This document shows, piece by piece, positions 879 through 59,937 of a stretch of 64,000 nucleotides of DNA. A model generated the notes under the pieces. It was not told the origin of the DNA and ran no database searches. It saw only the letters and a list, made by a program, of their open reading frames with translations. The stretch lies in IMG/VR virus record IMGVR_UViG_3300042391_001376, positions 140,905 to 204,904 of that record; one strand, written 5' to 3'. Made by a program: the position numbers and the translations under genes. The first letter of the stretch is position 1. Each line of letters begins with the position of its first letter. Source of the DNA: a virus.

Positions 879-883
879 TTAAT

Positions 884-5174: not shown

Positions 5175-5176
5175 AA

Positions 5177-5593: not shown

Positions 5594-5611
5594 ATTTCCT
5601 AACTTTTTTAC

Positions 5612-6016: not shown

Positions 6017-6017
6017 G

Positions 6018-6224: not shown

Positions 6225-6268
6225 AGAAACTCCTAATCTAATACTTAATATTAATAGTAATGACTCAG

Positions 6269-42312: not shown

Positions 42313-42645
42313 ATGTTAATAGAACGAAAGCCCTGGATGCAGGAATCTTCTTGTAATGAAGAAGATACAATTGTATTTTTCCCTAACAGATATACTGAAG
42401 CTACAGTGGCTAAGCCATTTTCTCTATGCGACACATGTTTAGTTAAAGCCGACTGTCTTTACGAGGCAATGATTACTGATTCTGTTGGCATATGGGGCGG
42501 AACAACCGAATACCAACGACTCATGCTTTTATCTAAATTATTTAATGATAACTCAAAAAATGTTAACATGAAAGCAATTATTAAGATAATAGAAAACAAC
42601 TACTACTCAATACCAATTTCATCTAGATATGAACAAAAATATTAA
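42313..42645 (+). CDS. WhiB-family Fe-S regulator 3
   Basis: 110 aa. Cluster Cys at 14, 39, 42 and 48, then GIWGGTTEYQR, the WhiB core. The N-terminus has PWMQESSC. It lacks a long basic tail, so its DNA-binding mode may differ from the other two copies. Confidence 0.9.
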   Translation: MLIERKPWMQESSCNEEDTIVFFPNRYTEATVAKPFSLCDTCLVKADCLYEAMITDSVGIWGGTTEYQRLMLLSKLFNDNSKNVNMKAIIKIIENNYYSIPISSRYEQKY

Positions 42646-44278: not shown

Positions 44279-44662
44279 ATGAGCTCAGAAGATTATAAAA
44301 AGTTAGATAAAATTAAAAAATTTAACTTTTCTTTTGATATGGTAACAAAAAGTAAAGCTGAGCTCCAAGAACAACGCGATGCAGTAAAGGAAAGAATAGA
44401 CAAGATCGTTAACCATTTTACGATAGACGATGTACCTATTCTTTCCTACATACTGCATGTAACTACTTCTCGTGTAGAATTAAAGAAGCTAGCTAAAGCT
44501 ATAGACAGACTCGCTGATTTAGCTGATGTCAATACTGCCTTAAGTAATAAGCTTAAAGTTATCGAAGCTGCAGAGTCAGACCCAAATTGGTTTGCTCTAG
44601 CTTTTGGTGACTTTGACCAAGAAATTGATCTTGATCTAGAAAAATTTTTTACCCAAGAATAG
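44279..44662 (+). CDS. Helical hypothetical protein, 127 aa
   Basis: Long charged helices (KAELQEQRDAVKERIDKIVN) and an acidic tail ending LDLEKFFTQE. AAGGAG upstream. It directly precedes the PRTRC-like module and may belong to it. Confidence 0.65.
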   Translation: MSSEDYKKLDKIKKFNFSFDMVTKSKAELQEQRDAVKERIDKIVNHFTIDDVPILSYILHVTTSRVELKKLAKAIDRLADLADVNTALSNKLKVIEAAESDPNWFALAFGDFDQEIDLDLEKFFTQE

Positions 44663-44680
44663 CCTAAGGAATATAATATC

Positions 44681-46324
44681 ATGGATAAAGTTTCTTACAG
44701 TTTTGTAAAAGAAGACAGCAATCTTATCTTTCGGTCTAAAGTAAATTCATTTAATCTTGACCACGTTACAGATAAAGATATAACTTCATTTTTTACATCT
44801 TTTTCTAATTATGCTTACTTTGATACTGGCTTGCTTCCTGTTGATGGAACTGGCTTATTAGGTATCAGACGCGCAGGAGACCACACTCAAGTTATATACC
44901 AGTATAAGCCTGGTATGTATTATGTTAATTGGGGTGCATATGAAAGAGACTCTGATTACACTAAGTATTATTTAGCTCAACCTTACAGGATTGTTGTTAT
45001 AGACTTTCTTAGCGACAACCTTTTAGGTGCTAGAACATTTTATACTGTAGAGCCGGCTATCCATTCTGCTGTTCAGCTTTACCATGTAAACTTACCAAAC
45101 ATTAATTGCAGAGGTTACCGAGGCAACGGTGTTGGTTGGATTTGCCTATACCATAATGAAGATTGGTCTACTCTTCCATTTAATGAAAGATTGAACAGAG
45201 CTCTTGAGCGTTGTTCTGGCGTTGAAGTATATAACGATGCCAACATGAGTGAAACAGACGGCCCACGCTTTTACCAAGAAAGAGAAATGCCTTTGTATAC
45301 TTGGTCCCCAAGTAAGTGGGAAAAAAAATCTACTGAAGAAGGTTGGGAATGGACTTTAGATTCATCTAATTGGATACCAATTCATGTTGAAAGCAGAGAC
45401 AGCCAAGGGCAACACAAAGAAGGCGGCATTCCCCTTACTTTAGTAGACGCAATTATTGGCAACTATAGTTCATACTATGGAGATACTTATTTGCCAAAAC
45501 CAGTAAACGCTTTGACTCGTTCAGATCTTGAAATTAATCCAATACAAGTTACTGATTGGTTTGTTAAATCTTATAATTCATCTAAAACTACATTTTCTGG
45601 GTTAGACCCATATTCTGCTAGTTCACAAATCAGAGAACAAAATTCTGTAGCTGTACCTAATTTGTTTGATGAAGACGAAGAAGAAATTGATGAAGACAGC
45701 GAAGACTACATAGCCTGTACAATGACAGGTGAAGCTACACCAATCGAAGATTGTTCAAAAGATCATTCTTATTACAATGTTAATACAGGCAAATGCATGA
45801 AGATTTGTTCTGAATGCATAAGCAGTCACGAGATGGTTTACGCAGAAAACACCATGCAGTTTTATGTCCCTGATCATATGGGCGACAGCCTTTATTATGA
45901 TACACACCACGATCAGTATTACGACACTAATGCCATAAAGACTCCTTGGGGCAACTGCTCTAATTGCGGAGGTATTCACATTTCTCCATTCCCAGATAAA
46001 CAATTATTCTTAATTTGGGAAAATCAACAAGAAGAACATTCTTCACTTTGTGCTTTCTGTATAGGTGGAGAAAATGTTGCTGATTGTATTAATTGTGGCG
46101 TCAATGTACCAAGTCACACTTCTCAACATTTTGATCCAACAACAGTAAAGTATGATCCTTCCACACAATACTACCATTGTGCGGTGTGTGTTGAAATCCT
46201 TCAATCAGCCAATTCTGAAGACGTAGCAGAATCAAACCAAGCTGAAGCTAAAAATTTATTACAACTATTGTCAGAACTTACAGATGGTACTTTAATTATA
46301 TCTTCTGATGAAGAACCGTTCTAA
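44681..46324 (+). CDS. PRTRC-B-like / zinc-finger protein
   Basis: 547 aa. The N-terminal ~210 residues include a block (IHSAVQLYHVNLPNI...GNGVGWICLY) that resembles the core of PRTRC system protein B. An acidic linker (DEDEEEIDEDSED) follows, then five Cys pairs in ~150 residues (CMKICSEC, CSNCGG, CAFC, CINCG, CAVC), probably zinc fingers. The C-terminus ends SSDEEPF, an SSB-like tip. First gene of the JAB/E1/Ub-like cluster; likely an adaptor or substrate-handling protein. Assignment to B is moderate. Confidence 0.7.
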   Translation: MDKVSYSFVKEDSNLIFRSKVNSFNLDHVTDKDITSFFTSFSNYAYFDTGLLPVDGTGLLGIRRAGDHTQVIYQYKPGMYYVNWGAYERDSDYTKYYLAQPYRIVVIDFLSDNLLGARTFYTVEPAIHSAVQLYHVNLPNINCRGYRGNGVGWICLYHNEDWSTLPFNERLNRALERCSGVEVYNDANMSETDGPRFYQEREMPLYTWSPSKWEKKSTEEGWEWTLDSSNWIPIHVESRDSQGQHKEGGIPLTLVDAIIGNYSSYYGDTYLPKPVNALTRSDLEINPIQVTDWFVKSYNSSKTTFSGLDPYSASSQIREQNSVAVPNLFDEDEEEIDEDSEDYIACTMTGEATPIEDCSKDHSYYNVNTGKCMKICSECISSHEMVYAENTMQFYVPDHMGDSLYYDTHHDQYYDTNAIKTPWGNCSNCGGIHISPFPDKQLFLIWENQQEEHSSLCAFCIGGENVADCINCGVNVPSHTSQHFDPTTVKYDPSTQYYHCAVCVEILQSANSEDVAESNQAEAKNLLQLLSELTDGTLIISSDEEPF

Positions 46325-46363: not shown

Positions 46364-48103
46364 ATGTCTCAGCAAGTTGAACAAACTAGCAAGATAACTC
46401 TTGATCAACTCCAATACTTTTGGATGCCATCAGGTTTGCCTTGCTTCGTCGCAGACAGGGATAGTATTTGCGACATAGTAGAAGATTTTGGTTTTAATAT
46501 TTATTATCTTCTAGCTAATAAAAAAACTGTTAAAACCATTCCGAACAACAGTGTTAAAACCACGACCACAACTGGTTATTCAAGTGGCGCTACAACATAC
46601 AACTATCCGAGTGCTCAGCCAACACAAGTTATAACATATAACTCTTCTTTGTTTAAAGTTATAAATAATTTTGTTGGTAGAGTTATAGAGCTTTCCGACG
46701 ATGAACTTCCAGAAACATTCTTTGTAGCTGAAGAAACATGCGAGTACAATATGCCCGCTATGCCGCATGTTCTTGTTGACAAAATGGATCAATTCTTTAG
46801 ACTTGTTTATTCTCAACATGGCACTGAATCAATTGTCTTGTTGACATATGATATGACTAAGACTGGTCCAGAAGGTTGGGGAGTTTTAGTTCCTGAACAG
46901 TCAAACACCGCAGCACATTGTAAGTATGATGCAGACAGCATTGCTCTTATTAAGCCAGAAGATGTTTTGATTGTCGGATCTGTTCATAGTCACCCAGAAA
47001 TGTCGGCTTATGCTTCTGGCACAGACCACGCTGACCAGGCTGATTTTGATGGTCTTCACATTACTTACGGTTGGCAGAAGTCTCAAAACAATGGTGCTAC
47101 TCAGTACCACTTAGAGCTTCAAATGGCAGGAACTGCTTACACCTTAAAGCCTGAAGATGTTTTTGAGGATTATACTTTTCAAAAAGAACCAGACCCAGAC
47201 GTAGTTGAATGGTCAGGTAAAGTAAAAAAAGCGCTCCCCCCTATAGCGGGGGGTACAACACCGCTGGCTTCGGCGCAGGCACAGTATCAACAACAAGCAC
47301 AAAAAATGACCTCATTACAAAATGGGACAACACCTATGGTGGGTGGAACACTTACTAGCAGGAATCTTAGCTGGCAACAAATGGTAGAAGGCTTAGAGCC
47401 TCAAGCTATTGTAATTGTAGAAGTAGATCTTCAACTTTCTAGAACTTCAATTTGTCCAAGTTGTGATTTTGATTTAGATACACCAGATGTAAATGCTGGA
47501 TATTGTTGCTCATGCGACGTTCCAGTTATATCATCTACACATGGTATCATGCAGATTGCTGCTCAGTTTGCTAAATATTGTGAACAAAGAAATTTAGATT
47601 ATCTTAAAACTATTCCTTATCTTTATGGTCAATCTGAAAAAGATGAAGTCTTTTTAATGAAGCTAAATCTTCAAGAAGAACTTACCGATATTCATACATA
47701 TGATTATGTTTATGAAAAAGATTCCGATTATGTTTATCTTCCTGAAGAAGACCCATATGATTCTATCTACGATATAAACGGAACAAGAACTGTCTGTTGC
47801 AATATTCCTATGGAGGATTTTGTATCTGATTGTTCGTGCAATCCAGCTATATTATTTGAAGATTTAACAAATTTTGAAGAACATATTAGGGATACAGAAA
47901 TGTACGCTGAAGGAACTTCATGTTTGGAATGCGTGCATTATTATAATGCTACCTGTCCAGCATTTCGTTCTGCTTTAACTACTTATGTTAAGCAGGGGTT
48001 TACACTAAATCTTGATCAACACAGAAACACGATAATTCCTTGCGAAAACTATCATTCTGTATATAGTTCATTTGAATCAACAGGAGCAAAAAATGGCAAC
48101 TAA
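46364..48103 (+). CDS. JAB/JAMM domain protease (PRTRC protein A-like)
   Basis: 579 aa. The JAMM motif is complete: H208-x-H210-P, six residues, S218-x-x-D221 (VHSHPEMSAYASGTD). The following DHADQADFDGLHI matches PRTRC A and MPN proteins that remove ubiquitin-like tags or act on C-termini. An N-terminal part (~1-130) and a C-terminal Cys-rich region (SICPSCDFD, YCCSCDV, CLECVHYY) extend it well beyond the usual size. It lies 40 nt after the B-like gene and overlaps the E1-like gene by 11 nt. Confidence 0.88.
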   Translation: MSQQVEQTSKITLDQLQYFWMPSGLPCFVADRDSICDIVEDFGFNIYYLLANKKTVKTIPNNSVKTTTTTGYSSGATTYNYPSAQPTQVITYNSSLFKVINNFVGRVIELSDDELPETFFVAEETCEYNMPAMPHVLVDKMDQFFRLVYSQHGTESIVLLTYDMTKTGPEGWGVLVPEQSNTAAHCKYDADSIALIKPEDVLIVGSVHSHPEMSAYASGTDHADQADFDGLHITYGWQKSQNNGATQYHLELQMAGTAYTLKPEDVFEDYTFQKEPDPDVVEWSGKVKKALPPIAGGTTPLASAQAQYQQQAQKMTSLQNGTTPMVGGTLTSRNLSWQQMVEGLEPQAIVIVEVDLQLSRTSICPSCDFDLDTPDVNAGYCCSCDVPVISSTHGIMQIAAQFAKYCEQRNLDYLKTIPYLYGQSEKDEVFLMKLNLQEELTDIHTYDYVYEKDSDYVYLPEEDPYDSIYDINGTRTVCCNIPMEDFVSDCSCNPAILFEDLTNFEEHIRDTEMYAEGTSCLECVHYYNATCPAFRSALTTYVKQGFTLNLDQHRNTIIPCENYHSVYSSFESTGAKNGN

Positions 48104-48851
48104 AAGATTTGTAGTTATTGGAGCAGGAGGCGTAGGCACTTGGCTTACCGCTGGCCTAGTAAGACTTCTTGAATGGAAGTTTCCTGGTTCTGGTTTAATT
48201 ATAGTAGATGGAGATAACTATGAAGAAAAAAATAAAGAACGTCAAGAGTTCGCTAAAATTGGCAACAAAGCTGTTGTCAAAGCGCACGAACTTACGCCTC
48301 AATTCCAGAAAACAACAATTATACCGGTTCCGAAGTGGGTTGTCAGTGACACCTTCAAAGGAGTCAGTGCAGACGAAGACTCTCCGAAGATTAAAGCGTC
48401 GGATCTCATATCTGAAGGAGATGTTGTTTTTGCAGTTGTCGATAACTTCGCTGCGCGTAAGATTATTTTTGATGCAGCTGCGAGGTTAAACAACGTAGAT
48501 GTATTTACTGGTGGCAATGACGACGCTTTGTTTGGTTCTATATATCATTACCAAAAAAGAAACGGCGTTGCAATAACCGAACATCCTTCAACATTCCATC
48601 CTGAATATGAAAATGCTCCAGATAAAAATCCTGGTGAACTATCATGCCAGGAGAGATCAGAAATAGAAGGTGGTACTCAACTACTAGCCACTAATATGGC
48701 AGTAGCTGCACTAATCCTTGGTCGCGTACAAAAAACAATTGTACTAGACCAAAGCCCCGAAGAAACTGAAATATATTTTGATTTAGGCGTAGGCAAAGCT
48801 GAGCCTTACAATCGGATGGTATCTCATGTTTCTGAATATATTACAGCATAA
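48093..48851 (+). CDS. E1-like ThiF/MoeB family protein
   Basis: 252 aa from ATG 48093 (CAGGAG upstream). Rossmann GAGGVG (10-15), D39 in IIVDGD, N47-K-E-R50-Q for ATP, VVDN with D117, and C185 (ELSCQER) at the position of the catalytic Cys. This is the adenylating E1-like fold; length matches the PRTRC-ThiF family. It should activate the C-terminus of the Ub-like protein encoded 19 nt downstream. Gene start overlaps the JAB gene end. Confidence 0.92.
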   Translation: MATKRFVVIGAGGVGTWLTAGLVRLLEWKFPGSGLIIVDGDNYEEKNKERQEFAKIGNKAVVKAHELTPQFQKTTIIPVPKWVVSDTFKGVSADEDSPKIKASDLISEGDVVFAVVDNFAARKIIFDAAARLNNVDVFTGGNDDALFGSIYHYQKRNGVAITEHPSTFHPEYENAPDKNPGELSCQERSEIEGGTQLLATNMAVAALILGRVQKTIVLDQSPEETEIYFDLGVGKAEPYNRMVSHVSEYITA

Positions 48852-48870: not shown

Positions 48871-49122
48871 ATGGAAAACAATATGTCAGGTGCATCAGCA
48901 TCACAAGCAACGGGAATGGCAAATCTTAGATTTGGCGTTTACAATCAACCTACTAACGTAGCTGGTAAATCAGTACAACAGACTCGTGAACAGTTCTCAA
49001 AAATTTGGGGTATCCCAACAGACGCAGTTGCCTACAAGGGCAAAGAGAAACTCGACGAGAACTATGTTATCCAACCAGGTGACAACGTAGAATTCCACCG
49101 TCGTGCTGGAGAAAAGGGCTGA
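48871..49122 (+). CDS. Ubiquitin-like beta-grasp protein (PRTRC protein C-like)
   Basis: 83 aa. After a flexible ~17-residue N-terminus, the core LRFGVYNQPTNVAGKSVQQ..., IWGIPTDAVAYKG, and IQPGDNVEFHRRAGEKG follows the beta-grasp order; the end is close to the GxKG end of PRTRC protein C, not the classic GG. A conserved-type closing Gly would be the site of adenylation by the E1-like protein. AAGGAG upstream; a strong terminator follows, closing the B-JAB-E1-Ub operon. Confidence 0.85.
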   Translation: MENNMSGASASQATGMANLRFGVYNQPTNVAGKSVQQTREQFSKIWGIPTDAVAYKGKEKLDENYVIQPGDNVEFHRRAGEKG

Positions 49123-49222: not shown

Positions 49223-50827
49223 ATGTTATTTGATGAAATAAAACTAGGCTATCCAGCTTTATGGCTTAAGACCACTGAATTTTCCAGGGCCGCCGAAAGC
49301 TTAATCTCTTATAATTTTAGAGATTTTTATACTATTGATTTTGAATCTGCTTTTTCTCAGTATGTTGATGGCTCATGGAAGACTGTTCTTATTGAAACAC
49401 TTAATCCAGAAACAAATGAAAGAGTTGCACAGTCAACTTTTGATCCTTCTGTTTCTTTGGATTATCTTATTAATTTAAAGTCTGAAAAACCTGTTACTTT
49501 TATTCTTTCTATTATTGGTAAGCCAGATATGACATTGCCTCCATACATGTCATTTATTGCTTCTTTGAACAGTAAGTACAGAAAGAATTTCTGGGCCGAT
49601 GATGCCAACGCTGGAGCAATACAGATTATATTCTTATCTTCTACTGACGCACCAGAAGAATACGCTCACATGTTTAAGAATGTTGAATTTTCTTATCCAA
49701 ATGCTGAAGAACTATTCACTGTTGTAAACCATATTGACAATGCTTCTGCAGGGCGATTTATAAAACAAGATTCAGTTAAAGATATTGTTCGTTCTGGTTT
49801 AGGTCTTGCTGAAGATCAGTTTGTAGATCTTTGTTTGCGTTCCATTTTGCATCACAACGAAGTTAACCCAAAGTACATATATGATCAAAAGATGGCTAAG
49901 ATTAAACAAGCCGGCATTCTTGAAATCATTAAGCCAACTATATCTTTTGCTAACATTGGTGGCTTAGATAATATTAAAGATATTATTCAAAGAACTAAAC
50001 TTCTTTGGGATAACAGAGAGCAAGCAAAATCTTTTGGCGTTGTACCAATCAGAAGAGTTCTTATGGTGGGCGTTCCAGGCACTGGCAAGTCAGCTATCTG
50101 CCAAGCAACTGCTCATGAACTAGGTCTTGACTTAGCTCGTACTGGAATTAGCCAAGTTATGAATTCTTTTGTTGGCCAGTCAGAGCAGAACATGCGAGCA
50201 GTTTTTCAACAGATTAAGATGATGACTCCACTTTGTGTTTGGATCGACGAGTTTGGTCGAGATCTTTCAGGTGGTGCTTCTTCTGCTTCTGTAGATGCGG
50301 GCACTACTGATCGCGTACACGGCGAATTCTTAACTGGTCTTCAAGAACTTCCAGAAGATACATTTCTTATGTGTGCAGCTAATCAAATAGAGAACCTTCG
50401 TCCCGAGATGCTTCGCGCAGATCGTTTCGATAAAATTGTTTTTGTTGGTCTTCCATCTCTTGAGGAAAGAAAAGATATCTTTAAGATATGCTTGAAGACA
50501 ATTGAAACAGATCACCAATTTGATCTAGATGCCCTAGCTGAAAAAGCAGAATACTTTACTGGCGCAGAAATAACTGCATTGATCAAAGAAGTTAAGTTCT
50601 TTGTAGTTTCATCTGAACTTAGATCTATAAATACTAATGATATTATATCTTATATTCCAAACGTTCGTAATATACTTTGGAACAAGAACAGAGACATGAT
50701 CAAGGGTATGTACCAATACGCCCTTGAACAGTGGGACTGGGCTTCGACACAACAACAAAAAGATGCTAAACTAATATTAGCAGGAAGAAAGTCTAATTCT
50801 GAATCAGAGTTAGCTTGGAAGATTTAA
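49223..50827 (+). CDS. AAA+ ATPase, Ycf46-like
   Basis: 534 aa. An N-terminal Ycf46-type alpha/beta domain (~1-170) leads to a classic AAA module: GGLDN at 246-250, Walker A GVPGTGKS (283-290), Walker B VWIDEF (339-344), a sensor AANQ (385-388) and LRADRFD with the arginine finger. The C-terminus (ELAWKI) has no HbYX motif for 20S docking, and no N-terminal coiled coil is seen, so it is not a canonical Mpa/ARC. It could still remodel substrates of the Ub-like module. First gene after the terminator. Confidence 0.85.
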   Translation: MLFDEIKLGYPALWLKTTEFSRAAESLISYNFRDFYTIDFESAFSQYVDGSWKTVLIETLNPETNERVAQSTFDPSVSLDYLINLKSEKPVTFILSIIGKPDMTLPPYMSFIASLNSKYRKNFWADDANAGAIQIIFLSSTDAPEEYAHMFKNVEFSYPNAEELFTVVNHIDNASAGRFIKQDSVKDIVRSGLGLAEDQFVDLCLRSILHHNEVNPKYIYDQKMAKIKQAGILEIIKPTISFANIGGLDNIKDIIQRTKLLWDNREQAKSFGVVPIRRVLMVGVPGTGKSAICQATAHELGLDLARTGISQVMNSFVGQSEQNMRAVFQQIKMMTPLCVWIDEFGRDLSGGASSASVDAGTTDRVHGEFLTGLQELPEDTFLMCAANQIENLRPEMLRADRFDKIVFVGLPSLEERKDIFKICLKTIETDHQFDLDALAEKAEYFTGAEITALIKEVKFFVVSSELRSINTNDIISYIPNVRNILWNKNRDMIKGMYQYALEQWDWASTQQQKDAKLILAGRKSNSESELAWKI

Positions 50828-50835
50828 GGATGCAC

Positions 50836-51483
50836 ATGTCAGATCAAATAGATTTTTCTAATATTGAAGAAGTATTAAACAGTATAGAAATGGATAAAGA
50901 TATCCCGTCGAACCATTCTATATCTGACGCTAAGCAGTATGATCAGGACCTTTATAAAAAATGGTTTCGTTCTAAAACTCAGAGCGGTTTTCTTTCAATT
51001 AAACCTTGGTACCAAGGACTTAAATTTAAAATAGATATTGGCAAGACTTCGCCTGATGGCAAGTTACTCGGTAGCACTATGGTTTTTGTTGACGCAATTG
51101 ATTTTGCCGCATATCTTGATTCTATCATTAATGGAACAGCTAAAATTAATTTTCCTACTAATGAAAAGAATGGCAGCCCCACCGATGAATCTTTTGTTTC
51201 TTATGGCGGAGGATTAATAGATTCTAAGCCAATATCTAGAATATTTAAATCTCATTATTGGCAGAATTCAGACAAGTCTTATGACAGCAATGCTTTCACC
51301 TGGAAGTGCGGCCACTTTGCTGCACGCAAAACAGAGAGCGGAGCCTTCATCCCCAACATGTCTTCACCAGTTTCTGTTGATTCTATCAAAGTAACTAGAC
51401 AAGATATTGTTAGTATAGCTTTTATATTGAAGCTATCACTTACATCCCACGTTACAAACAACCCAGATTGGTATAATATCTAA
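50836..51483 (+). CDS. Hypothetical protein, 215 aa
   Basis: ATG 50836 best fits the AAGG site; 50830 is an alternative. Beta-rich protein with a Gly-rich segment (FVSYGGGLIDSKPI), and FTWKCGHFAARK. No family recognised; it follows the AAA gene by 8 nt and is likely co-transcribed. Confidence 0.65.
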   Translation: MSDQIDFSNIEEVLNSIEMDKDIPSNHSISDAKQYDQDLYKKWFRSKTQSGFLSIKPWYQGLKFKIDIGKTSPDGKLLGSTMVFVDAIDFAAYLDSIINGTAKINFPTNEKNGSPTDESFVSYGGGLIDSKPISRIFKSHYWQNSDKSYDSNAFTWKCGHFAARKTESGAFIPNMSSPVSVDSIKVTRQDIVSIAFILKLSLTSHVTNNPDWYNI

Positions 51484-51485
51484 TT

Positions 51486-51875
51486 ATGGAAACGCCTATT
51501 GAACAACCAGATGCTAGTTTAATTACTGGTTTACTTTCTACCTTGATGGAAGAAGTTTATAAAAAAATTTATGACGATATTGAAAATCAATTTAAGGATA
51601 TCATCAAGAAGATAGAAGCCTACGAAGATCAGGTCGCTACAATAGTTTATGCTTACGGCGAACAAGCAGTAGTGATGGAAGCTTTAGCAACTCAGTTGAA
51701 CTATGCTTCACCTGAAGCACAAAAAGCTTTTACCGATTCGCTTTCGGAACAAAGAAAAAAGATGGTGGAGACATTAAATGAAGGATCTAAAGGATTTGTG
51801 GCCGATAAAGATCCAGGACTTGCCAGAGCCATTAACAACGTGGTTAAGGAAAAGTTATCTAACACAGATAAATAA
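51486..51875 (+). CDS. Coiled-coil hypothetical protein, 129 aa
   Basis: Nearly all helix, charged (EVYKKIYDDIENQFKDIIKK...). Could be a structural adaptor of the module. Starts 2 nt after the previous gene. Confidence 0.65.
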   Translation: METPIEQPDASLITGLLSTLMEEVYKKIYDDIENQFKDIIKKIEAYEDQVATIVYAYGEQAVVMEALATQLNYASPEAQKAFTDSLSEQRKKMVETLNEGSKGFVADKDPGLARAINNVVKEKLSNTDK

Positions 51876-52065
51876 TAATGAATGCGTTTTGTTTGTAGAT
51901 AAACAGAACTATTTATTATTACAGAATATAGCTTATCTGTCTCAAATTTATCCAATTGTTAAATCTATTTGTCCTGAATTTAAATCTCTTCATATGGTTG
52001 AAAGTTCACTCTTAACCTATCTTCGACAATCAAAAATAGAACTATACTCTATAGAGGTCAACTAA
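51778..52065 (+). CDS. Hypothetical protein, 95 aa
   Basis: The only in-frame ATG (51778) has a GGTGGAG site 8 nt ahead but overlaps the previous gene by 98 nt; a TTG near 51890 would shorten it. Leu/Tyr-rich (LLLQNIAYLSQIYPIVK). No family recognised. Confidence 0.5.
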   Translation: MKDLKDLWPIKIQDLPEPLTTWLRKSYLTQINNNECVLFVDKQNYLLLQNIAYLSQIYPIVKSICPEFKSLHMVESSLLTYLRQSKIELYSIEVN

Positions 52066-52724
52066 TGTTAATAACTGATTTTAAGTCTCATTCTTCTTTT
52101 AATGCTTTCTGGAATGAAGCAATGCCGAACCTTCATGGTAGTAAGCGGCTAACTTTTGATTTATATATCCTGTGGAAATTTAACCGGATAGATATTATTA
52201 AAGCTCACATCGAAAATGATGTTAGCATTACAAATTATGTAGAACAATATTCTGCTTCACACAAAGAAGAATATGATCAGTTTGTAAGTAACTACAATTA
52301 CTTTTATTCTGAAAGAGAATTCTATGTTTATCCATATAGTTCTACTAAATTTATTAATCACATGTTTAAAAATGTTCTTCCATCAGCAAAAGACAACTTG
52401 TTCAATGTGTTATTTGATAATTCATTATTCATAAAAGATAAATTTGAGCCTTCCACTACTGGCTTCAAAGGTTGCATTATTGCCAAATATACACCCGACG
52501 ACGCAGCACTAGTCTCTATACATAACAACGTATTCGAAGCGACCCCTTTCGACTCTATAGGGCATGCTAAGAAGATAGTAGAGTGTTTAGATAGTTTGGC
52601 AAAAGACAATGAAGCTTACCGTACTTATATAGCAGAGTTGGAAACAGCTGTTCTTCACTTGAACAAGCAAATAGACTTGCAACAAAAACAGGGACTTAAC
52701 GGTTATCTTTTAAGTTGGCATTAA
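52065..52724 (+). CDS. Hypothetical protein, 219 aa
   Basis: Mostly helical protein with aromatic stretches (YNYFYSEREFYVYPYSS) and a C-terminal coiled coil (YIAELETAVLHLNKQIDLQQ). Starts 1 nt overlapped with the previous stop (TAATG). Unknown function; part of the module-associated operon. Confidence 0.65.
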   Translation: MLITDFKSHSSFNAFWNEAMPNLHGSKRLTFDLYILWKFNRIDIIKAHIENDVSITNYVEQYSASHKEEYDQFVSNYNYFYSEREFYVYPYSSTKFINHMFKNVLPSAKDNLFNVLFDNSLFIKDKFEPSTTGFKGCIIAKYTPDDAALVSIHNNVFEATPFDSIGHAKKIVECLDSLAKDNEAYRTYIAELETAVLHLNKQIDLQQKQGLNGYLLSWH

Positions 52725-52757
52725 TATTATAAACATCTAATATATTTAAAGGATTTT

Positions 52758-53633
52758 ATGTATAAAATAAAATTAAGTGAAATAGGTTCAAAGTTTTCAA
52801 CAGTAAAAATGGACAGTGAGCACACTGTAAATTTTTACATTAATAATTATAATAAAATTCCTGTTAATAAAGTAGTTTATGATTTTTTTAATAGCGGTGA
52901 ATTGTACATTAATTATCCTGCACACTTAGGTGAAATCACTGCTTTGAGCGAAACTATCCAAACTATATATTCTAACTATATTATGAAAGATAGTTTCATG
53001 AAACAGTTAGATCCGGACAAAAGTCAAATTCCTCATTGGACCGAAAGATATGTAGACGATAAATTAAATGGTTGGATGCTAGATTTAACTCTTATATTTA
53101 AAGTTTCTCCTTCATCAGTTCCTGTTCCAGTATGCAAGAATTTTACCGGGATGACCAAAGATGGTTCTATACATATTTCTTCTGGTTATCTTTTTGCCAA
53201 CAAACCATCTACCGTAGACACTAATTGTTCTAGTCCCAAGGTTTATGTAAACAAGCTTACCCCTCATCATTGCGTTTACTCTAATCCTTCTAATTCAACT
53301 TACGGTTTTTCTTCTTGTCCTTTTTATGAATATGATTATGAACTCATTAAATCCGTAGAGGTTAATTCAAACACTTCTAAGGCTCAAAGTTTTGAAATTA
53401 GATATATTAAATTATCTAATGGTTTTGCAACTTACCAATTGTTTGACAAAACAAACAGTCAAATAAATTATGTTGTTCATGAAAAAGATACTCAAGAATT
53501 AAGAGATAGTATAATTTCAGTTATGGATGAAGTTATGTCTTCTTATGATCATTATATTCTTAAGCCAAATCAAAAACACGAAGAATCTTTAAATTCTTTT
53601 GAAAAAAAAAGCTATATTCTATCTTTAGTTTGA
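52758..53633 (+). CDS. Hypothetical protein, 291 aa
   Basis: Beta-rich protein with YINYPAHLGEITAL, and a Cys group near residues 155-195 (DTNCSSP..., HHCVYSNP..., SSCPFYEY). It lies before two clearly related large proteins and may be a distant member of the same family. No catalytic motif. Confidence 0.6.
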   Translation: MYKIKLSEIGSKFSTVKMDSEHTVNFYINNYNKIPVNKVVYDFFNSGELYINYPAHLGEITALSETIQTIYSNYIMKDSFMKQLDPDKSQIPHWTERYVDDKLNGWMLDLTLIFKVSPSSVPVPVCKNFTGMTKDGSIHISSGYLFANKPSTVDTNCSSPKVYVNKLTPHHCVYSNPSNSTYGFSSCPFYEYDYELIKSVEVNSNTSKAQSFEIRYIKLSNGFATYQLFDKTNSQINYVVHEKDTQELRDSIISVMDEVMSSYDHYILKPNQKHEESLNSFEKKSYILSLV

Positions 53634-53642
53634 GGCCCAATT

Positions 53643-55097
53643 ATGCAACATATCTTTGATTCTAACAGTGACCACACGAGGATCTATACAATTGAATCCT
53701 CCCAACCCTATGCCTATTCAGAGTTTACTGATTGGATTAGACACTACGACTCTGCTAGGTATGTTCCTCCATATTTAGAAAAAGTTGCTTTCCAAGAAAT
53801 GATACAGATTCCAACTCCTAGACTTTACAGCATAAAAAAAGTTCGTTCTTTTGAACGATATAAAGATTTTGTTTACCCAATGGCAGTAAGGTATATTTCC
53901 CAAAATAATACCTATGTTATAGAACGTCCTCCTTTTGAATTAGAAGTTGATTTTCGCATGGGTGGCGCTCATTCAGGGCATCCTAAAATGCCAGCTGTTA
54001 AAATCTGGATTCCTTGGACAGTTATGATATTCAAGGCTAACTCATTTGTTACTGGATCTTTTTCTGATGTTCAGCTTTTTCTAAACAGTGGGCCAATTGA
54101 ATCTCTTGATGACCAACTTATTCCTTGTCTTTACCCTAATTCTTATAGCAATTCTAAGATATGTTTTTCTGCTTCCTTAAGTGACTTTAATGATGTTTTA
54201 GATCTTGAAGAATTTGAAAAAGGAAACATTGGTTATATCTATAATTACATATTTAATAATTATATGATGGGTGGATGGAATGCTGATCTTGAACAGAACT
54301 TAGTGCGCATTCGTTACATGAAGAATAATAAAGATTATCCTATAACAAACTTGTTTCTTAACCCTAGTTCTGATAAAGATTTTTATTCTAAGCTATCTTC
54401 TGTTTTTTCTAAAGAATTTTTTTCTAAAATTAAAAGATTTTATAAAGAAGACTTTGAATTAAATAGGTCTAGAATTAGTAGAGAAAAACTCTACACTAGA
54501 AACTTTGGTATATTTTCTGCTTTTACTTTAGAACAAAAAATTAATTTTATCAAAGAAATTCAAACTTACAATTCTTTAAATAAAATAGATGGTTATAAAC
54601 TTTCAAATTTAATTGAAGAACATGAGCATAGAAGTCATTGTGAAACTTCCGCTTCTGGCGTAAGTTCAATACTTAAACTAACTGATTCTTCTATACAGTA
54701 CACCTATAAAAGTAATGTATTTGATTTTTATTTTGTAAGAAATAGAACTATGATATCTAGACATGAATCAATTTTTCAACAAATTCCTCCTCAACAGCTT
54801 ACTTTAATTCAGCGTCAGCTTATAGACTTTATGGCTAATAGAAGTGAGAATGAACAAATTGCTTTTGTTTACGATTTGACCGATAACACTTATGAAGTAA
54901 TTATTAATTATAATGATAGAGAATTTATTTCTGAAATATATAACACTATACTTGCGCATTGCAAAGAACGCCTTGAAGAAACACAAGAAAGATCTAGATT
55001 TAGAACCTGGTTTAATACAGTAGATGAATCATTTTTGGCAAGATCTATAGACCACCTTTGCAAGCCAAAACAAAATATTGAACAGGATGTTGTATGA
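53643..55097 (+). CDS. B-like domain protein, 484 aa
   Basis: Shares a central block with the next gene: IPWTVMIFK, then VQLFLNS...DDQLIPCLYPNSYSN...KICFSASLSD, about residues 115-185, against IPWQLYFVKF...VRMFFMKSS...FLPPIPNFYTDGLLCSPTMSN. The same rhythm occurs in the B-like protein at 44681. The C-terminal ~250 residues are helical and charged (ISREKLYTRN, KERLEETQERSRF). Likely paralogues serving the Ub-like module or virion; function unknown. Overlaps the next gene by ATGA. Confidence 0.65.
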   Translation: MQHIFDSNSDHTRIYTIESSQPYAYSEFTDWIRHYDSARYVPPYLEKVAFQEMIQIPTPRLYSIKKVRSFERYKDFVYPMAVRYISQNNTYVIERPPFELEVDFRMGGAHSGHPKMPAVKIWIPWTVMIFKANSFVTGSFSDVQLFLNSGPIESLDDQLIPCLYPNSYSNSKICFSASLSDFNDVLDLEEFEKGNIGYIYNYIFNNYMMGGWNADLEQNLVRIRYMKNNKDYPITNLFLNPSSDKDFYSKLSSVFSKEFFSKIKRFYKEDFELNRSRISREKLYTRNFGIFSAFTLEQKINFIKEIQTYNSLNKIDGYKLSNLIEEHEHRSHCETSASGVSSILKLTDSSIQYTYKSNVFDFYFVRNRTMISRHESIFQQIPPQQLTLIQRQLIDFMANRSENEQIAFVYDLTDNTYEVIINYNDREFISEIYNTILAHCKERLEETQERSRFRTWFNTVDESFLARSIDHLCKPKQNIEQDVV

Positions 55098-56272
55098 ACG
55101 ATAAAGGTTACAGACTCACAATAGCAGACTTTAATTTAGAAGATTCTAATTATCGGACACACAATGCCGCCAGTCTTCAGACTCATATAAACATTACTAA
55201 TCCTTTTTTGTTTGATGCCGAGAGAAACAATACCATGCTTCTTGTTGGCGACACCGCAAAAAGAACTATAGGTGAATATTTTTCTGTTTTTAATCCTGTA
55301 AAAACTAACTCTACAGATACAGGTATATTGCCTCCTGGAGTCAAAATAATCGGAACTAATTATTTAGTTTTTGAAAAACCTCCTACATTTAAAAATATAT
55401 TTTATGTTCCTGCATCTAGATCTGATGTCCCAGATGATTGTGAAGATCTTGAACAGGTTTATCGTATTCCAATACCTTGGCAATTATATTTTGTTAAGTT
55501 TAATCCTAACATGTATACCTATGAAGTAAGAATGTTCTTCATGAAGAGCAGCTTATCTTCTACTGACCAAGAGTTATTTCTTCCACCTATTCCAAACTTT
55601 TATACTGACGGTTTACTTTGTTCCCCAACAATGTCAAACATGGAGGATGTTGATAGATATCCTAAGAATCATGCAGGCATAATACAGTCTGCTTATGACT
55701 GGGTTTGGAATTCTGGCACGAACCATGATTTGACAGAAGCTTGTTTACATCTTTCTATGCAGTTGCCGCGGAACCAAACAGTGCTAAAGAACATCCCTGA
55801 GCAAGTATATCAATTAAATTTTCCCACTAGCAATATGTCCATAAACAGATACAGTGCTTCTCCAGGGCAGGTTAAACTTATCCTAAGTGTTTGGGAAAAA
55901 TTTTCTTTATCCGATGTTTGCGAAATGTCATGGCCGAATGTGTCTGGTCCTACTCGCACTTTTGATTATCGAACTGACAGTGTCCGTGACCAGAGCGCTT
56001 ATTACGATAATTTAGCAGATTACCTTTCTGGCCATTATGACCCTGAAGATATAGAAGCAGTTATGGAAAATGACGATTATGACCATAGCGACTATGTCTC
56101 ATATTTATTAGACAATGGTTTAATCAGCATCCCTTCTGGAAGACCGTGGGATATAACTTATACTTATTCTTCTTTACTCCCTCATCTTATTGCAACACTC
56201 GGTGCTGAATTAAATACCGCTGATTGCAGCTTTGAGCGCGAAATTCAAGTAATGACCACAAATAATGTGTGA
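55094..56272 (+). CDS. B-like domain protein, 392 aa
   Basis: Paralogue of the previous gene by the shared PPPT/IPIPWQLYFVKF...NFYTDGLLC block (residues ~90-185). The C-terminal part is acidic (HYDPEDIEAVMENDDYDHSDY). Its start overlaps the previous stop. A regulatory region with an inverted repeat follows it. Confidence 0.65.
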   Translation: MNDKGYRLTIADFNLEDSNYRTHNAASLQTHINITNPFLFDAERNNTMLLVGDTAKRTIGEYFSVFNPVKTNSTDTGILPPGVKIIGTNYLVFEKPPTFKNIFYVPASRSDVPDDCEDLEQVYRIPIPWQLYFVKFNPNMYTYEVRMFFMKSSLSSTDQELFLPPIPNFYTDGLLCSPTMSNMEDVDRYPKNHAGIIQSAYDWVWNSGTNHDLTEACLHLSMQLPRNQTVLKNIPEQVYQLNFPTSNMSINRYSASPGQVKLILSVWEKFSLSDVCEMSWPNVSGPTRTFDYRTDSVRDQSAYYDNLADYLSGHYDPEDIEAVMENDDYDHSDYVSYLLDNGLISIPSGRPWDITYTYSSLLPHLIATLGAELNTADCSFEREIQVMTTNNV

Positions 56273-56281
56273 CCATTAAGG

Positions 56282-56318
56282 TTGATTTTTTATCAAATAA
56301 ATGATATTATATTATCAT
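56282..56318 (+). promoter_or_regulatory. Promoter with overlapping inverted repeat
   Basis: TTGATT, 17 nt, TATTAT (56305-56310). ATGATA/TATCAT (56301-56318) straddles the -10 box, consistent with an operator, perhaps for the MerR-like protein just downstream. Confidence 0.5.
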
Positions 56319-56345
56319 ATATAAACTTAAATAAAGGTAGATAAA

Positions 56346-56642
56346 ATGTCCCGTAATTCTATCACTGAACCAATCTTTAACAGGTCCGAAGTAGCCCAAA
56401 TACTTAATGTTTCTACTCTTACAATTTCTAATAGAGAAAAAAACAATAAGTACCCTAGTCCTAAAAGAGACTTAAACAACTATAGAGTTTACAGCTTGAA
56501 TGATGTTTTTAATCTTCAACTTATAACTTACAACCACATTGATCCAAAGCCAATCATATCAATCATGTATGACAAAGGGTTTGAAGATGTAAAACAGCTT
56601 GGTAAGATGATAGATTCAGCTTTATCTAGAAGGACGCAATAA
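56346..56642 (+). CDS. MerR-like DNA-binding protein
   Basis: 98 aa. FNRSEVAQILNVSTLTISNREKNNKYPSPKRDLNNYRVYS is a winged HTH of MerR/excisionase type, followed by a short helical part. As the first gene after an operator-like repeat, it may regulate this operon (ssb, udg-like and others). Confidence 0.8.
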   Translation: MSRNSITEPIFNRSEVAQILNVSTLTISNREKNNKYPSPKRDLNNYRVYSLNDVFNLQLITYNHIDPKPIISIMYDKGFEDVKQLGKMIDSALSRRTQ

Positions 56643-56643
56643 C

Positions 56644-56886
56644 ATGCAGGACGAAGACGATAACACAAAGGTAGACGGATTAATTGATCAGGTAGATGAG
56701 TACGTATCTACTGATAAAGTTCTTGACTTAAAGAGTGGAATATACAATTTGTTTGTTTCGCTTTTTAACGACTACACGATTGACTTTGGTCCTGTTAAGG
56801 CTGTAGAATTATCAACGCAGTTTCTTGACGAAATATCAACTAACTTTAAACAAATCCTAAATAACAATACAGAAAGCAAGGAATAG
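56644..56886 (+). CDS. Hypothetical acidic protein, 80 aa
   Basis: Acidic helical protein (EDDNTKVDGLIDQVDEYV). Starts 1 nt after the MerR-like gene and precedes ssb by 2 nt. No family recognised. Confidence 0.65.
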   Translation: MQDEDDNTKVDGLIDQVDEYVSTDKVLDLKSGIYNLFVSLFNDYTIDFGPVKAVELSTQFLDEISTNFKQILNNNTESKE

Positions 56887-56888
56887 CT

Positions 56889-57320
56889 ATGATAGACCCA
56901 CGCAACTTAATTAACCTTACCGGAGGAGTTGTTACCGATGTTGAATTGGTTAACGACAAAATTGCAAAGTTTCGTTTAGCGGTAGATTACGCTGGATCAG
57001 AAAAAGGTTCAGATAATACATCAGGATATTTTGATGTGGTGTATTACCTCAAAGATGCCAATGGTTTTATTGGCAAGAACGCAACCTTTATCCATGGTCA
57101 AGTAAAGGCTGATAAAATTAAGAAGGGCGCAAAGCTTCAAATTGTTGGACGCTTAGTGCAAGAAAGATGGAAGCAAGACGATCAAAATAAGAATCGTGTT
57201 GTTGTAGTTGCAGAGCATATTTCTTATGCAACAACTGCTGGAGCCCAAGGAGCTAAAACAGCTTCCGCTGGAACATCGTCTGACACAGAAACGCAAAGCT
57301 CTGTACCAGACAGCTTCTAA
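56889..57320 (+). CDS. ssb: Single-stranded DNA-binding protein
   Basis: 143 aa. An OB-fold with the bacterial SSB order: NLINLTGGVVTDVEL, KFRLAVDY, YFDVVYYLKD, KKGAKLQIVGRLVQERWKQ...VVVVAEHISY. A Ser/Thr/Ala-rich linker ends SSVPDSF, close to but weaker than the DDIPF tip of bacterial SSB. Overlaps the UDG-like gene by 1 nt (TAATG). Acts in replication and recombination with RecA. Confidence 0.9.
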   Translation: MIDPRNLINLTGGVVTDVELVNDKIAKFRLAVDYAGSEKGSDNTSGYFDVVYYLKDANGFIGKNATFIHGQVKADKIKKGAKLQIVGRLVQERWKQDDQNKNRVVVVAEHISYATTAGAQGAKTASAGTSSDTETQSSVPDSF

Positions 57321-58069
57321 TGGAAGAATTTAGTGAAGAGTTATTAAACTCTTTAATAGAGGAAGCCCTGAACGAAAAGGGGGAGAGTCTATTAAGACCA
57401 GCTTCTGGGATGTACCTATCCTTTGGAGAAACAGATCTGCTTGCTTTAACACATCAATATATGTCAAAGCATTTGCCGCAGTCTGAACTTAATAGTATTT
57501 TTCAAGAGTTTCGTTCAGAGCTTCTTTCTAGAAAAGTTGCGATAACTCCCAAAGAAGTACATACCGTTACTCGTAACTGCAGGAAATGCGCCATACCATC
57601 CACTGCCGAATTGCCCAAATGGAACGTAGTCAATCCAGATGTAGTAATCGTTGCAGAATCTCCTTCTATAGAACCTGACGCCATAAATTTAATGGTAGAA
57701 TCTATTAAGGAAGCCGGCTTTAAATCAAATGACTTATGCTTAACGTATGTTAATAGATGTCCTAAGTTTGGTAAGTATGATAGCAAAGAAATAATTAATT
57801 GTTCTCCATATTTACATACTGAAATACAATCTTTGAATCCTAAGCTCATAGTTACTATGGGCGGGCTTGCTTGTTCGGTTATATTTGGAACTGAGATTAA
57901 AATAAAAGATTACCGTGGTAGTGTGACATGGCTAGGCTATTGGCCCGTGCTGCCAACATATTCTCCTGGATATGTTTTAAAATCAGGTGCTAATGCAGTG
58001 GAGCAGTTCCGCTCTGATATGATTCAAGCTTATCAATTTATACATCAATCTAAGAAAGAAGTTGTATGA
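57320..58069 (+). CDS. Uracil-DNA glycosylase superfamily (family 4-like)
   Basis: 249 aa. NPDVVIVAESPS corresponds to motif 1 (usually GEAPG), LTYVNRCP is the substrate pocket strand, and TYSPGYVL corresponds to motif 2 (HPS/HPA). Cys at CRKC, RCP and NCSP could ligate the 4Fe-4S cluster of family 4 enzymes. Changed motif-1 and -2 residues raise the possibility of another base specificity or a DNA-binding role. The first ~70 residues form an extra N-terminal region. Next to ssb, so DNA repair is likely. Confidence 0.8.
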   Translation: MEEFSEELLNSLIEEALNEKGESLLRPASGMYLSFGETDLLALTHQYMSKHLPQSELNSIFQEFRSELLSRKVAITPKEVHTVTRNCRKCAIPSTAELPKWNVVNPDVVIVAESPSIEPDAINLMVESIKEAGFKSNDLCLTYVNRCPKFGKYDSKEIINCSPYLHTEIQSLNPKLIVTMGGLACSVIFGTEIKIKDYRGSVTWLGYWPVLPTYSPGYVLKSGANAVEQFRSDMIQAYQFIHQSKKEVV

Positions 58070-58467
58070 TGAAAGAAACAATATTTACTCACTCTCTTAT
58101 ATCTGACCTTGACGCTAAACAGTTTACTAAATTTGAAGAACTAGTTACAAAAGATGTTAAGTCTACTTCTACCTCAGAAGAGTTAGAAATATTAAAATCA
58201 AATTTAGATCTTTGGCTTTATTCATTGTCTTCAATTAGAAGAAATGTTGAATACCATTTGTCTTCAAGATCTGCTGCCCGCAAAGCTAAGATTAACGAAA
58301 TGCTTCAAAGCCAGGAACCTAAAGAAGCTATAAATGCTTTTAAGAATACTGAAGCTGAGTGGAGAGTTAACGCAATAAAGTTTCTTTCGACTATAGAGAA
58401 GAAAACTCTTTATGTAAAGATGATTGTAAAAGAGCAGAAACAATTAGAGAGAATAGAATACATTTAA
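58066..58467 (+). CDS. Helical hypothetical protein, 133 aa
   Basis: Long helices with Lys/Glu (EELEILKSNLDLWLYSLSSI...), ATGA overlap with the UDG-like gene. No family recognised. Confidence 0.65.
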   Translation: MMKETIFTHSLISDLDAKQFTKFEELVTKDVKSTSTSEELEILKSNLDLWLYSLSSIRRNVEYHLSSRSAARKAKINEMLQSQEPKEAINAFKNTEAEWRVNAIKFLSTIEKKTLYVKMIVKEQKQLERIEYI

Positions 58468-58468
58468 G

Positions 58469-58918
58469 ATGCAGGCCATTATCCATTGCCCAGAAATTCT
58501 TCATTCTGTTGAATCTACTTTGGATGAACAAAGTTCTTTTGGTCTTGTAGAAAACTTCTACCATGTTTTTCCGTTGTTTTACCACTATTCAGCTAGTGAA
58601 TATGGCCTTAAAGAAACTCTTGACTTAGCAACAACTTTTTCTGCGCTGCATGCTAGAGTCAAGGTTCAGGTTAATGGCTTTGACCAAACGATAAATTCTT
58701 CTATACCATTAGATATTTTAAGATATAAGATGTTGGAAGATGGCTCATATCATACGATAAGCCGTGCAAAAGGTTTTTATAAACCAGGCTACATAGTAGA
58801 AGGTGCTTTGTGGTCTAACGGTTTTTACCATTTGACCAGAGAAGAAGAATCTACCCAAATACTAGATCTACATTTCTATATCGACCAGTACACCAAAACG
58901 ATGCATAGGTACATATGA
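58469..58918 (+). CDS. Hypothetical protein, 149 aa
   Basis: Mixed alpha/beta protein with His-rich N-terminus and aromatic segments (VENFYHVFPLFYHYSAS). ATGA overlap with the next gene. Unknown. Confidence 0.65.
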   Translation: MQAIIHCPEILHSVESTLDEQSSFGLVENFYHVFPLFYHYSASEYGLKETLDLATTFSALHARVKVQVNGFDQTINSSIPLDILRYKMLEDGSYHTISRAKGFYKPGYIVEGALWSNGFYHLTREEESTQILDLHFYIDQYTKTMHRYI

Positions 58919-59190
58919 CAATTAAATCTTATTTCTTTCGCGACAGTTCTTTTATTATAAATGTTTCTTGGGATGAAGACTCTGATTTTTTATATATAAA
59001 ATTTAATTCTGGAACCACTTGGGTATATTATGATGTTTCTGAAGAAACATATAATCGTTTGATTAGATCTGTTTCTGTTGGTGAGTACTTTAATAAAAAT
59101 ATAAGAAATAAATATTCGTCTGCAAGAATTAATTATCCAATTGAAAATGGTAATATCGATGTCCAGAAAAAAGAACAAGAAGCATCGTAA
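58915..59190 (+). CDS. KTSC domain protein
   Basis: 91 aa. VSWDEDSDFLYIKFNSGTTW then YDVSEETYNRLI...SVGEYFNKNIRNKY is the KTSC domain of lysyl-tRNA-synthetase-adjacent and phage proteins. Function of the domain is poorly known; nucleic-acid binding is suspected. Overlaps neighbours. Confidence 0.85.
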   Translation: MTIKSYFFRDSSFIINVSWDEDSDFLYIKFNSGTTWVYYDVSEETYNRLIRSVSVGEYFNKNIRNKYSSARINYPIENGNIDVQKKEQEAS

Positions 59191-59326
59191 TAACAAAAAT
59201 TACGCTTATTACGAAAAAATGTGGAAACCAGCTAATTCAAATGATATAAACAGAATAGCTGTTCAGGTTTTTGGGTCACTTTATTTTTCGCAACAATATG
59301 AAAATGATGATATAATAAATACATGA
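59159..59326 (+). CDS. Small basic protein, 55 aa
   Basis: Starts inside the KTSC gene (ATG 59159; ATG 59147 is an alternative). Lys/Asn-rich N-terminus (SRKKNKKHRNNKN), then a hydrophobic helix (INRIAVQVFGSLYF). Overlaps the proteasome-like gene by 4 nt. Unknown. Confidence 0.5.
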   Translation: MSRKKNKKHRNNKNYAYYEKMWKPANSNDINRIAVQVFGSLYFSQQYENDDIINT

Positions 59327-59937
59327 CAACTATTGTTGGTTTACAAGGCGATAATTTTGCTGTTGTCTATGTTGATTCACGCATATCGTCTAGTGATTCC
59401 GGTGGATATATCTCCCAAATTTCAACTCTAAAAGAGGGATGCGGTAAAGTTGCGGTTAATGGCAAATACCTTTTGGGTGCCGCAGGAGATGTTAGAGCTA
59501 TCAACATTCTTCACCATGTATTCCAACCACCAACACCACCGCCAAATATGCGAGGCAAGCGTTTAGATCAATTCTTTACAGCTAAGTTTATTCCCGCATT
59601 AAGAGAATGTTTTGAACAACAGGGTTACGCAATACCTGATATTAAAGAAGACAAAGAGCACATGGCCGAACAGGCTTCTACAATACTTGTAGTTATACAT
59701 GGAATAATTTATGTCGTTGATGGAGATTACTCCTGGACCTCTGATTCTTCTGGCATGTATGCTCTTGGTTCTGGTTCATCTTATGCCTTAGGAGCATTGC
59801 AGGCTTTAGCTACTAATAGAAAGCTTACTATACCTCAAGCTAAAAAATTAGCCTTAAAAGCTTTATCTACAGCGGCAAAGTTCGATCCATATACAGGTCC
59901 GCCTTTTCATTGCCATATACAGGAACAAGGTAAATAG
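59323..59937 (+). CDS. Proteasome beta/HslV-like Ntn hydrolase
   Basis: 204 aa. After Met removal Thr1 is exposed (TTIVGLQG), D17 follows in VDSR, a Lys (36 or 41) may serve as the general base, and GSGSSYALGAL (148-158) and FDPYTGPP (D187) match the serine/GSG and Asp positions of 20S beta and HslV. Length matches a bare beta subunit with no propeptide. No alpha-type gene is visible. It may assemble a homo-ring peptidase, alone or with an ATPase such as 49223 or 6269. ATGA overlap with the small basic gene. Confidence 0.85.
   Translation: MTTIVGLQGDNFAVVYVDSRISSSDSGGYISQISTLKEGCGKVAVNGKYLLGAAGDVRAINILHHVFQPPTPPPNMRGKRLDQFFTAKFIPALRECFEQQGYAIPDIKEDKEHMAEQASTILVVIHGIIYVVDGDYSWTSDSSGMYALGSGSSYALGALQALATNRKLTIPQAKKLALKALSTAAKFDPYTGPPFHCHIQEQGK

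Follow-up and report, generated by a model that had tools for sequence, protein, structure and literature searches.

A Predicted Ubiquitin-Like Gene Module and a Probably Independent Proteasome-Like Peptidase Gene in the Viral Contig IMGVR_UViG_3300042391_001376

We studied a stretch of 64,000 nucleotides (positions 140,905 to 204,904 of IMG/VR record IMGVR_UViG_3300042391_001376; here, the window), with which a viral contig of 204,904 bp, from a large freshwater phage, ends. It carries genes for a ubiquitin-like protein (Ubl), an E1-like adenylyltransferase, three E2-like candidates, a JAB isopeptidase, a AAA+ ATPase, and a proteasome-like N-terminal-nucleophile (Ntn) hydrolase. An earlier note on this DNA had seen the AAA+ ATPase, the Ntn hydrolase, and a Ub-like operon as possible parts of one self-contained apparatus for tagging, de-tagging, unfolding, and degrading proteins. 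Our analysis favors, with a probability that we put at about 0.7, two separate things, namely, a phage Ubl module related to the PRTRC system (44.3 to 56.3 kb) and an independent Ntn peptidase gene (59.3 kb). All genes described below are on the plus strand unless otherwise indicated. Placing the Ntn gene outside the module avoids a wrong headline, and of the two it is the module that is of more interest, being phage borne and equipped with a AAA+ ATPase and three E2-like candidates.

Distribution of the Ntn gene and the module

Using E1, Ubl, and Ntn as queries against viral contigs, we obtained 44 module-bearing records (the window counted in), 40 of them evaluable for Ntn, as G009, G050, G072, and G076 stop too soon past the module. 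The family of the AAA+ ATPase at 49223..50827 was found in 43 of the 44, while Ntn was found in 31 (31 of the 40 evaluable), counts that are not independent, given that many of the records are only fragments and that several form near-identical pairs. Ntn was absent from nine module records with more than 20 kb of downstream sequence (G007, G008, G051 to G055, G077, and G078), and these absences were spread over at least three E1 identity groups. In G007, the KTSC gene, a small coupled open reading frame (ORF), and the homologue of the gene at 60019 are all in place, and the Ntn slot is occupied by two unrelated small ORFs. In the window, the Ntn gene lies 8.5 kb past the end of the AAA+ gene, outside the operon. 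A lack of co-conservation, which the earlier note had named as refuting its proposal, was found for Ntn and not for the AAA+ ATPase, which is conserved together with the tagging genes.

The Ntn gene was also found far from any such module. In 72 of the 80 Ntn loci, Ntn was the only gene in common with the window region (63 to 75% identity), and 36 of the 42 Ntn records had no E1. Among these are the complete DSL-LC01 (129 kb) and six records of 95 to 98 kb that, being so alike in length, look near complete. Neither window AAA+ protein (49223 or 6269) has a relative in those six, where no AAA or AAA_2 domain passed the Pfam cut-off either; in DSL-LC01, two other AAA matches did. The settings were equally diverse. 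In the unrelated ca. 97-kb lineage (one genome read), Ntn has terminase/endolysin genes on one side and portal/major head protein genes on the other; in DSL-LC01, it adjoins a WhiB gene, 6 kb upstream of the terminase; and in the window lineage, it comes after SSB and UDG, close to where that gene block ends. Since a conserved single gene recurs in such different settings, Ntn is best read as an independently mobile, stand-alone gene of freshwater phages, and a fixed membership in the module was ruled out by the nine absences among 40 records together with the module-free loci.

The Ntn peptidase gene and its hosts

The Ntn gene (59323..59937) encodes 204 amino acids from an ATG start (N terminus MTTIVG), and its start codon overlaps the stop of a translationally coupled 61-aa ORF (59141..59326; ATGA), a likely homologue of which (62 aa) is retained in the Ntn-less G007. 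The protein matched Pfam Proteasome (4e-9) and PHROG 1040, “peptidase HslV family” (3e-22). Once the Met is removed, Thr1 and Asp17 stand where the earlier note had placed them, and GSG is found at 149 to 151. The Lys33 equivalent is K42 (Met-1 numbering), an offset due to a loop about 8 residues longer than that of HslV. Among 12 diverse phage Ntn proteins, D, K, and G-x-G were unchanged in all, and the Met-Thr start with the catalytic Thr was present in 11, the remaining one having been read from an internal start. A structure model built from 14 sequences (predicted local distance difference test [pLDDT], 68) matched HslV and 20S beta subunits in the PDB, with E values down to 4e-8. In a family-profile search, the two BPH chains were the ones, among the solved relatives listed, that aligned with Ntn from end to end, and the alignment takes in the EDKE acidic loop (Ntn KEDKEHMAEQAS against BPH GEDKEDDLESSR). 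The ratio of nonsynonymous to synonymous changes (pN/pS), always computed between the window and G001 and only rough because synonymous sites are close to saturation, was 0.12.

Judged from these matches and from the model, 59323..59937 is a real Ntn-fold peptidase gene of the HslV/BPH kind. The 20S/HslV-type assignment made earlier is thus borne out by the fold and by Pfam and PHROG, though the protein stays below the NCBIfam equivalog cut-offs (HslV, 27.2 versus 157.75 bits; bacterial 20S beta, 18.1 versus 191.9; archaeal beta, 32.8 versus 224). Group-I proteasome homologues of phages, PPH and AAH, have already been described (Fuchs et al. 2021, PMC8665760). The window protein shares with AAH, PPH, and BPH the group-I fold, a Met-Thr start without propeptide, the catalytic Thr/Asp/Lys, and the phage location, but differs in its 204-aa length and longer loops, in its identity of only 30 to 34% to the plasmid relatives, and in its residence in WhiB-bearing phages; no AAH was found in actinophages by Fuchs et al. 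(PMC8665760). Because its plasmid relatives (Streptomyces, Rhizobium, and Sinorhizobium; 32 to 34% identity) fit the distribution of AAH and the HslV and 20S cut-offs were failed by far, we take it for a new, probably AAH-like member of this known family. With HslV it has the active site and fold in common, and the longer loop before the pore strand sets it apart, as does the score. In HslV, the loop is short and HslU is the partner, while for BPH, whose pore loop is long and acidic, no unfoldase is known (PMC8665760). No HslU was recognized in the phage: the AAA+ proteins of the window are of the Cdc48 and ClpB-D2 types, and in G000, AAA_2 matched only the ClpB-type gene. The gene would add to the family a widespread, phage-specific group-I proteasome homologue, likely of actinophages.

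As for the hosts, the window encodes a WhiB regulator (42313..42645; PF02467, 1.3e-12), a protein that has been used as a marker of actinobacterial hosts (PMC6802176), and WhiB genes also occur in the ca. 97-kb Ntn lineage. They indicate actinobacterial hosts, and the Ntn-bearing freshwater phages very probably infect Actinobacteria. A search of genome contigs with the Ntn profile gave one match, L121 (JAURLY010000091.1), in a gammaproteobacterial metagenome-assembled genome. This contig also contains WhiB-like and endolysin-like genes and is probably a misbinned actinophage contig.

Gene content and affinities of the ubiquitin-like module

The E1-like adenylyltransferase (48093..48851) matched ThiF (6e-13) and has a candidate catalytic Cys in GELSCQER; its ORF opens at 48072 with TTG, and the likely start is the ATG at 48093. 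It matched PRTRC_ThiF at 5.5e-6, below the NCBIfam cut-off, and the PRTRC ThiF set by hhalign over its full length (3e-23), while its profile found nothing useful in the PDB. The JAB/JAMM isopeptidase (46364..48103), with zinc-type cysteines at its C terminus, has an exact HxHP-x6-S-x2-D motif whose JAMM residues are invariant among the phage relatives, and it was related to Prok-JAB (5e-5, just under the cut-off), PRTRC_A (0.001), and the PRTRC A set (hhalign, 7e-6). The Ubl candidate (48871..49122; 83 aa) ends in ..EFHRR(A/S)GEKG, and the tail HRR(A/S)GEKG was unchanged in all phages read. PRTRC C and related plasmid proteins have the parallel endings ...AGAKG, GTKG, and AGTKG, and the Ubl of Cytobacillus also has G-x-K-G. 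The match of the Ubl profile to PRTRC C and related proteins was weak (0.0013) and limited to the tail, the remainder having no significant match, and the PRTRC_C model found nothing in the phage's own genome.

The AAA+ gene (49223..50827) starts 100 bp past the Ubl gene, in agreement with the earlier note, which had a AAA+ follow the Ub-like operon, and its AAA domain is intact. The protein consists of an N-terminal region and one Cdc48-type AAA domain (Pfam AAA, 5e-23; AAA_lid_3 also matched) with Walker A GVPGTGKS, IDEF, an FVG pore loop, and RFD. Its nearest library families were phrog_8638, Cdc48/VCP, and the defense ATPase IetA. Like the IetA, Ycf46, and Cdc48 ATPases, it has a pore loop and an arginine finger in its AAA domain; it differs from them by its association with the Ubl module and by some 130 N-terminal residues without a library match. 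No ubiquitin-like module was recognized by eye in the AAA+ neighborhoods of Catdawg and Agrobacterium JP1. An HbYX motif was considered and dropped: the protein has no such tail, and its C terminus varies among relatives (WKI, SFA, FKW, and VKI).

A second AAA+ gene lies far upstream on the minus strand (6269..7684). It had also been put forward as a possible unfoldase; it is indeed a AAA+ protein, but its single ClpB/ClpA D2-type domain (AAA_2, 3e-52; ClpB_D2-small, 1e-11; TIGR ClpB, 4e-95) rules out HslU or ClpX, and it is absent from the ca. 97-kb Ntn phages. Its homologue in the near-identical G004 and G005 is broken by a TAG and looks, for that reason, dispensable or split.

Three further proteins are E2-like candidates, and hhalign comparisons among them are to be read against controls with unrelated pairs, which gave 0.16 to 0.5. 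Candidate a (44681..46324) has the motif LPNINC..YRGNGVGWICLYH in its N-terminal ca. 280 aa and, in most relatives, C-terminal C-x2-C zinc-type repeats; it matched candidate c at 3.5e-5 and PRTRC B only at 0.09. Candidate b (53643..55097), with an invariant P165-N166...C174, matched candidate c at 4e-13 and the PRTRC B set at 2e-5. Candidate c (55094..56272), with the motif PPIPNFYTDGLLCSP and a Cys invariant in eight sequences, matched the PRTRC B set at 3.7e-5. Candidates b and c are paralogous, with an invariant P-x-N...C or P-N...C, and had pN/pS values of 0.56 to 0.61. In the rest of the module, the values were much lower (Ubl, 0.06; E1, 0.10; AAA+, 0.19), and the range of 0.06 to 0.19 that covers these genes, Ntn, and the gene at 50815 points to purifying selection. 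Such a contrast between a constant core and E2-like proteins that change fast would be expected if the latter choose the targets.

Three more genes lie in the same stretch. It is headed by a gene for a 127-aa protein (44279..44662; 40 to 89% identity; pN/pS, 0.11), syntenic in nearly all module loci. The 222-aa protein at 50815..51483 (50 to 89% identity; pN/pS, 0.10), whose gene overlaps that of the AAA+ ATPase, comes after it in every AAA+-bearing module locus that extends that far. Finally, a fast-evolving protein (52758..53633) has four cysteines, C126, C157, C172, and C187, invariant in eight sequences, a possible zinc site. Several C-x2-C pairs were also seen in the C-terminal halves of the JAB protein (46364-48103) and candidate a (44681-46324), and L204 encodes the zinc part of the JAB protein separately, in a gene of 182 aa.

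The closest known counterpart is the PRTRC system of plasmids and integrative and conjugative elements, which corresponds to the class 6d Ubl-E2-JAB-E1 operons, with an E2 in the operon (Iyer et al. 2006, PMC1779556). The PRTRC order B-A-ThiF equals the phage order of E2-like, JAB, and E1 genes, and the full-length E1 homology, JAMM motif, and G-x-K-G tail of the Ubl are common to both. In contrast, the phage module resides in a phage, has its Ubl gene behind E1, includes an added AAA+ gene and three E2-like genes instead of one, and scores below the NCBIfam cut-offs. No match to PRTRC E, F, or ParB was noticed in the phage, with no family-by-family search made. On these similarities, E1, Ubl, and JAB are related to the PRTRC (class 6d) system and appear to have diverged from it. 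With the Bil and other eukaryote-like ubiquitination defenses of bacteria, the module shares the idea of an operon that combines E1, E2, JAB, and Ubl, but its E1 reached only 5e-4 with the PADLOC E1-E2 defense models, and the carrier here is the phage.

Bacterial Ubl conjugation is reportedly discussed at present mainly as an anti-phage defense (Hor et al. 2024, as cited in PMC12660748). A phage-owned system whose E2-like proteins evolve fast while its Ubl is strictly conserved would, if confirmed, reverse this picture, with phages using conjugation to reprogram or counter the host. A tail-assembly Ubl with JAB is a known phage case (PMC1779556), and archaeal Borgs have deSAMPylases (PMC12660748). 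The open-access literature that we searched held no description of a phage-borne Ubl module, which is weak evidence, as subscription papers were mostly uncovered; a review of jumbo phages (PMC7824862) mentions no JAB, ThiF, HslV, or PRTRC.

As a separate observation, G047 (267,766 bp) contains two different copies of the module, at 19.6 kb and 235.2 kb (a distance of ca. 215 kb), and after each copy comes an Ntn gene of its own; this may be a duplicated module or a chimeric assembly.

Predicted mechanism, alternatives, and neighboring genes

We propose that E1 would adenylate the Ubl at the C-terminal Gly83 of its GEKG tail, that the three E2-like proteins, or at least one of them, would take over the Ubl on their cysteine and attach it to proteins of the host or the phage, and that the JAB enzyme would take it off again. 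Like other Cdc48-type ATPases, the AAA+ protein would most likely remodel or extract the modified proteins and not feed a protease. Thr1 of Ntn, exposed by removal of the Met, would be the nucleophile of a peptidase that most likely forms rings and, unaided by any unfoldase of the phage, breaks down either a defined host target or proteins that are small or unfolded.

Of the self-contained system proposed earlier, the tagging (Ubl, E1, and E2-like) and de-tagging (JAB) parts are recognizable by sequence and the AAA+ ATPase goes with them; what fell away is the connection to Ntn. That all four activities nevertheless form one phage proteasome-like system could be argued from the presence of every part in one genome within ca. 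16 kb and from the frequencies of Ntn and of the nearly fixed AAA+ ATPase in module records. We consider it unlikely, in view of the missing Ntn genes, the replacement at the syntenic site in G007, the Ntn phages without the module and without a AAA/AAA_2 ATPase above the cut-off, the AAA+ C terminus with neither an HbYX tail nor a constant sequence, and the long, BPH-like acidic loop, which suggests that Ntn has no HslU-type gate; Ntn and the tagging module are probably not one degradation machine. It is quite unlikely that just the Ntn-holding phages channel Ubl-tagged proteins into Ntn through the Cdc48-like ATPase, the protease being open to loss; if true, this would be a virus-encoded, modular degradation system of the ubiquitin-proteasome type with a working E1-E2-JAB-Ubl cascade. 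A role of Ntn as virion or prohead maturation protease would agree with the ca. 97-kb lineage, where it stands among late genes (terminase/endolysin; portal, a scaffold-like ORF, and major head protein) and where no other protease was recognized between portal and major head protein. We regard this as very unlikely, since in the window lineage the gene ends the SSB/UDG block and is not near the large genes of the opposite strand, in DSL-LC01 it is beside WhiB at a distance of 6 kb from the terminase, in other phages its neighbors are metabolism genes or small genes, and some sister phages do without it. Proteasome homologues also include a ligase, connectase (PMC8665760), but that Ntn is such a nonpeptidase enzyme is highly improbable given its full proteasome-type active site, its compact group-I fold, and HslV and BPH as nearest solved relatives.

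For the module, an E1-Ubl pair acting as a sulfur carrier of the ThiS/MoaD type, with no protein conjugation, would suit the ThiF/MoeB type of the E1 domain and the ThiF-like systems with JAB known from sulfur metabolism (PMC1779556). What makes it improbable is that the cluster also holds three E2-like families whose cysteines are invariant, that no sulfurtransferase or sulfur gene was recognized nearby, and that the E1 itself in gene order and full-length profile is closest to PRTRC, an operon class with E2 (PMC1779556). Our reading of a conjugation module beside an independent peptidase gene has its own difficulties, to which the nonindependence of the counts belongs. Within the window's phage group, 31 of 40 records have Ntn, which is well conserved there and may have a secondary functional tie to the module. 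The only module record without the AAA+ gene, the divergent and truncated G076, has an intact Ubl ending in GEKG and then unrelated genes. The Ubl profile found nothing among PDB sequences, and candidate c matched Prok-E2_D at 0.047 over residues 34 to 167 of 171, below the cut-off. The structure model of candidate a was poor (pLDDT, 55), and its PDB search gave nothing below 0.1 and no E2; for these two reasons, the predicted E2 function is the weakest step.

Ahead of the module, most relatives have, just upstream, a gene for an M50-type peptidase-like membrane protein (43427-43885 in the window; 7e-10). The small protein at 41443-41898 has a DnaJ-type CXXCXGXG zinc stretch, and its homologue in DSL-LC01 (L001:18757-19272; 53%) precedes the Ntn gene by ca. 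700 bp. In G001, the contig start (base 501) is repeated near the end (207878; 73% identity, ungapped, in the overlap), which suggests a genome of ca. 207 kb with overlapping ends. Outside the viral records, a 204-kb “plasmid” of Bacillus halotolerans (L113; NZ_CP114067.1) has at 516-6756 a PRTRC-like ThiF near SSB, RecA, UDG, and MerR, the same kinds of genes as those at 56346-58069 of the window, and is possibly a phage-plasmid with a related module.

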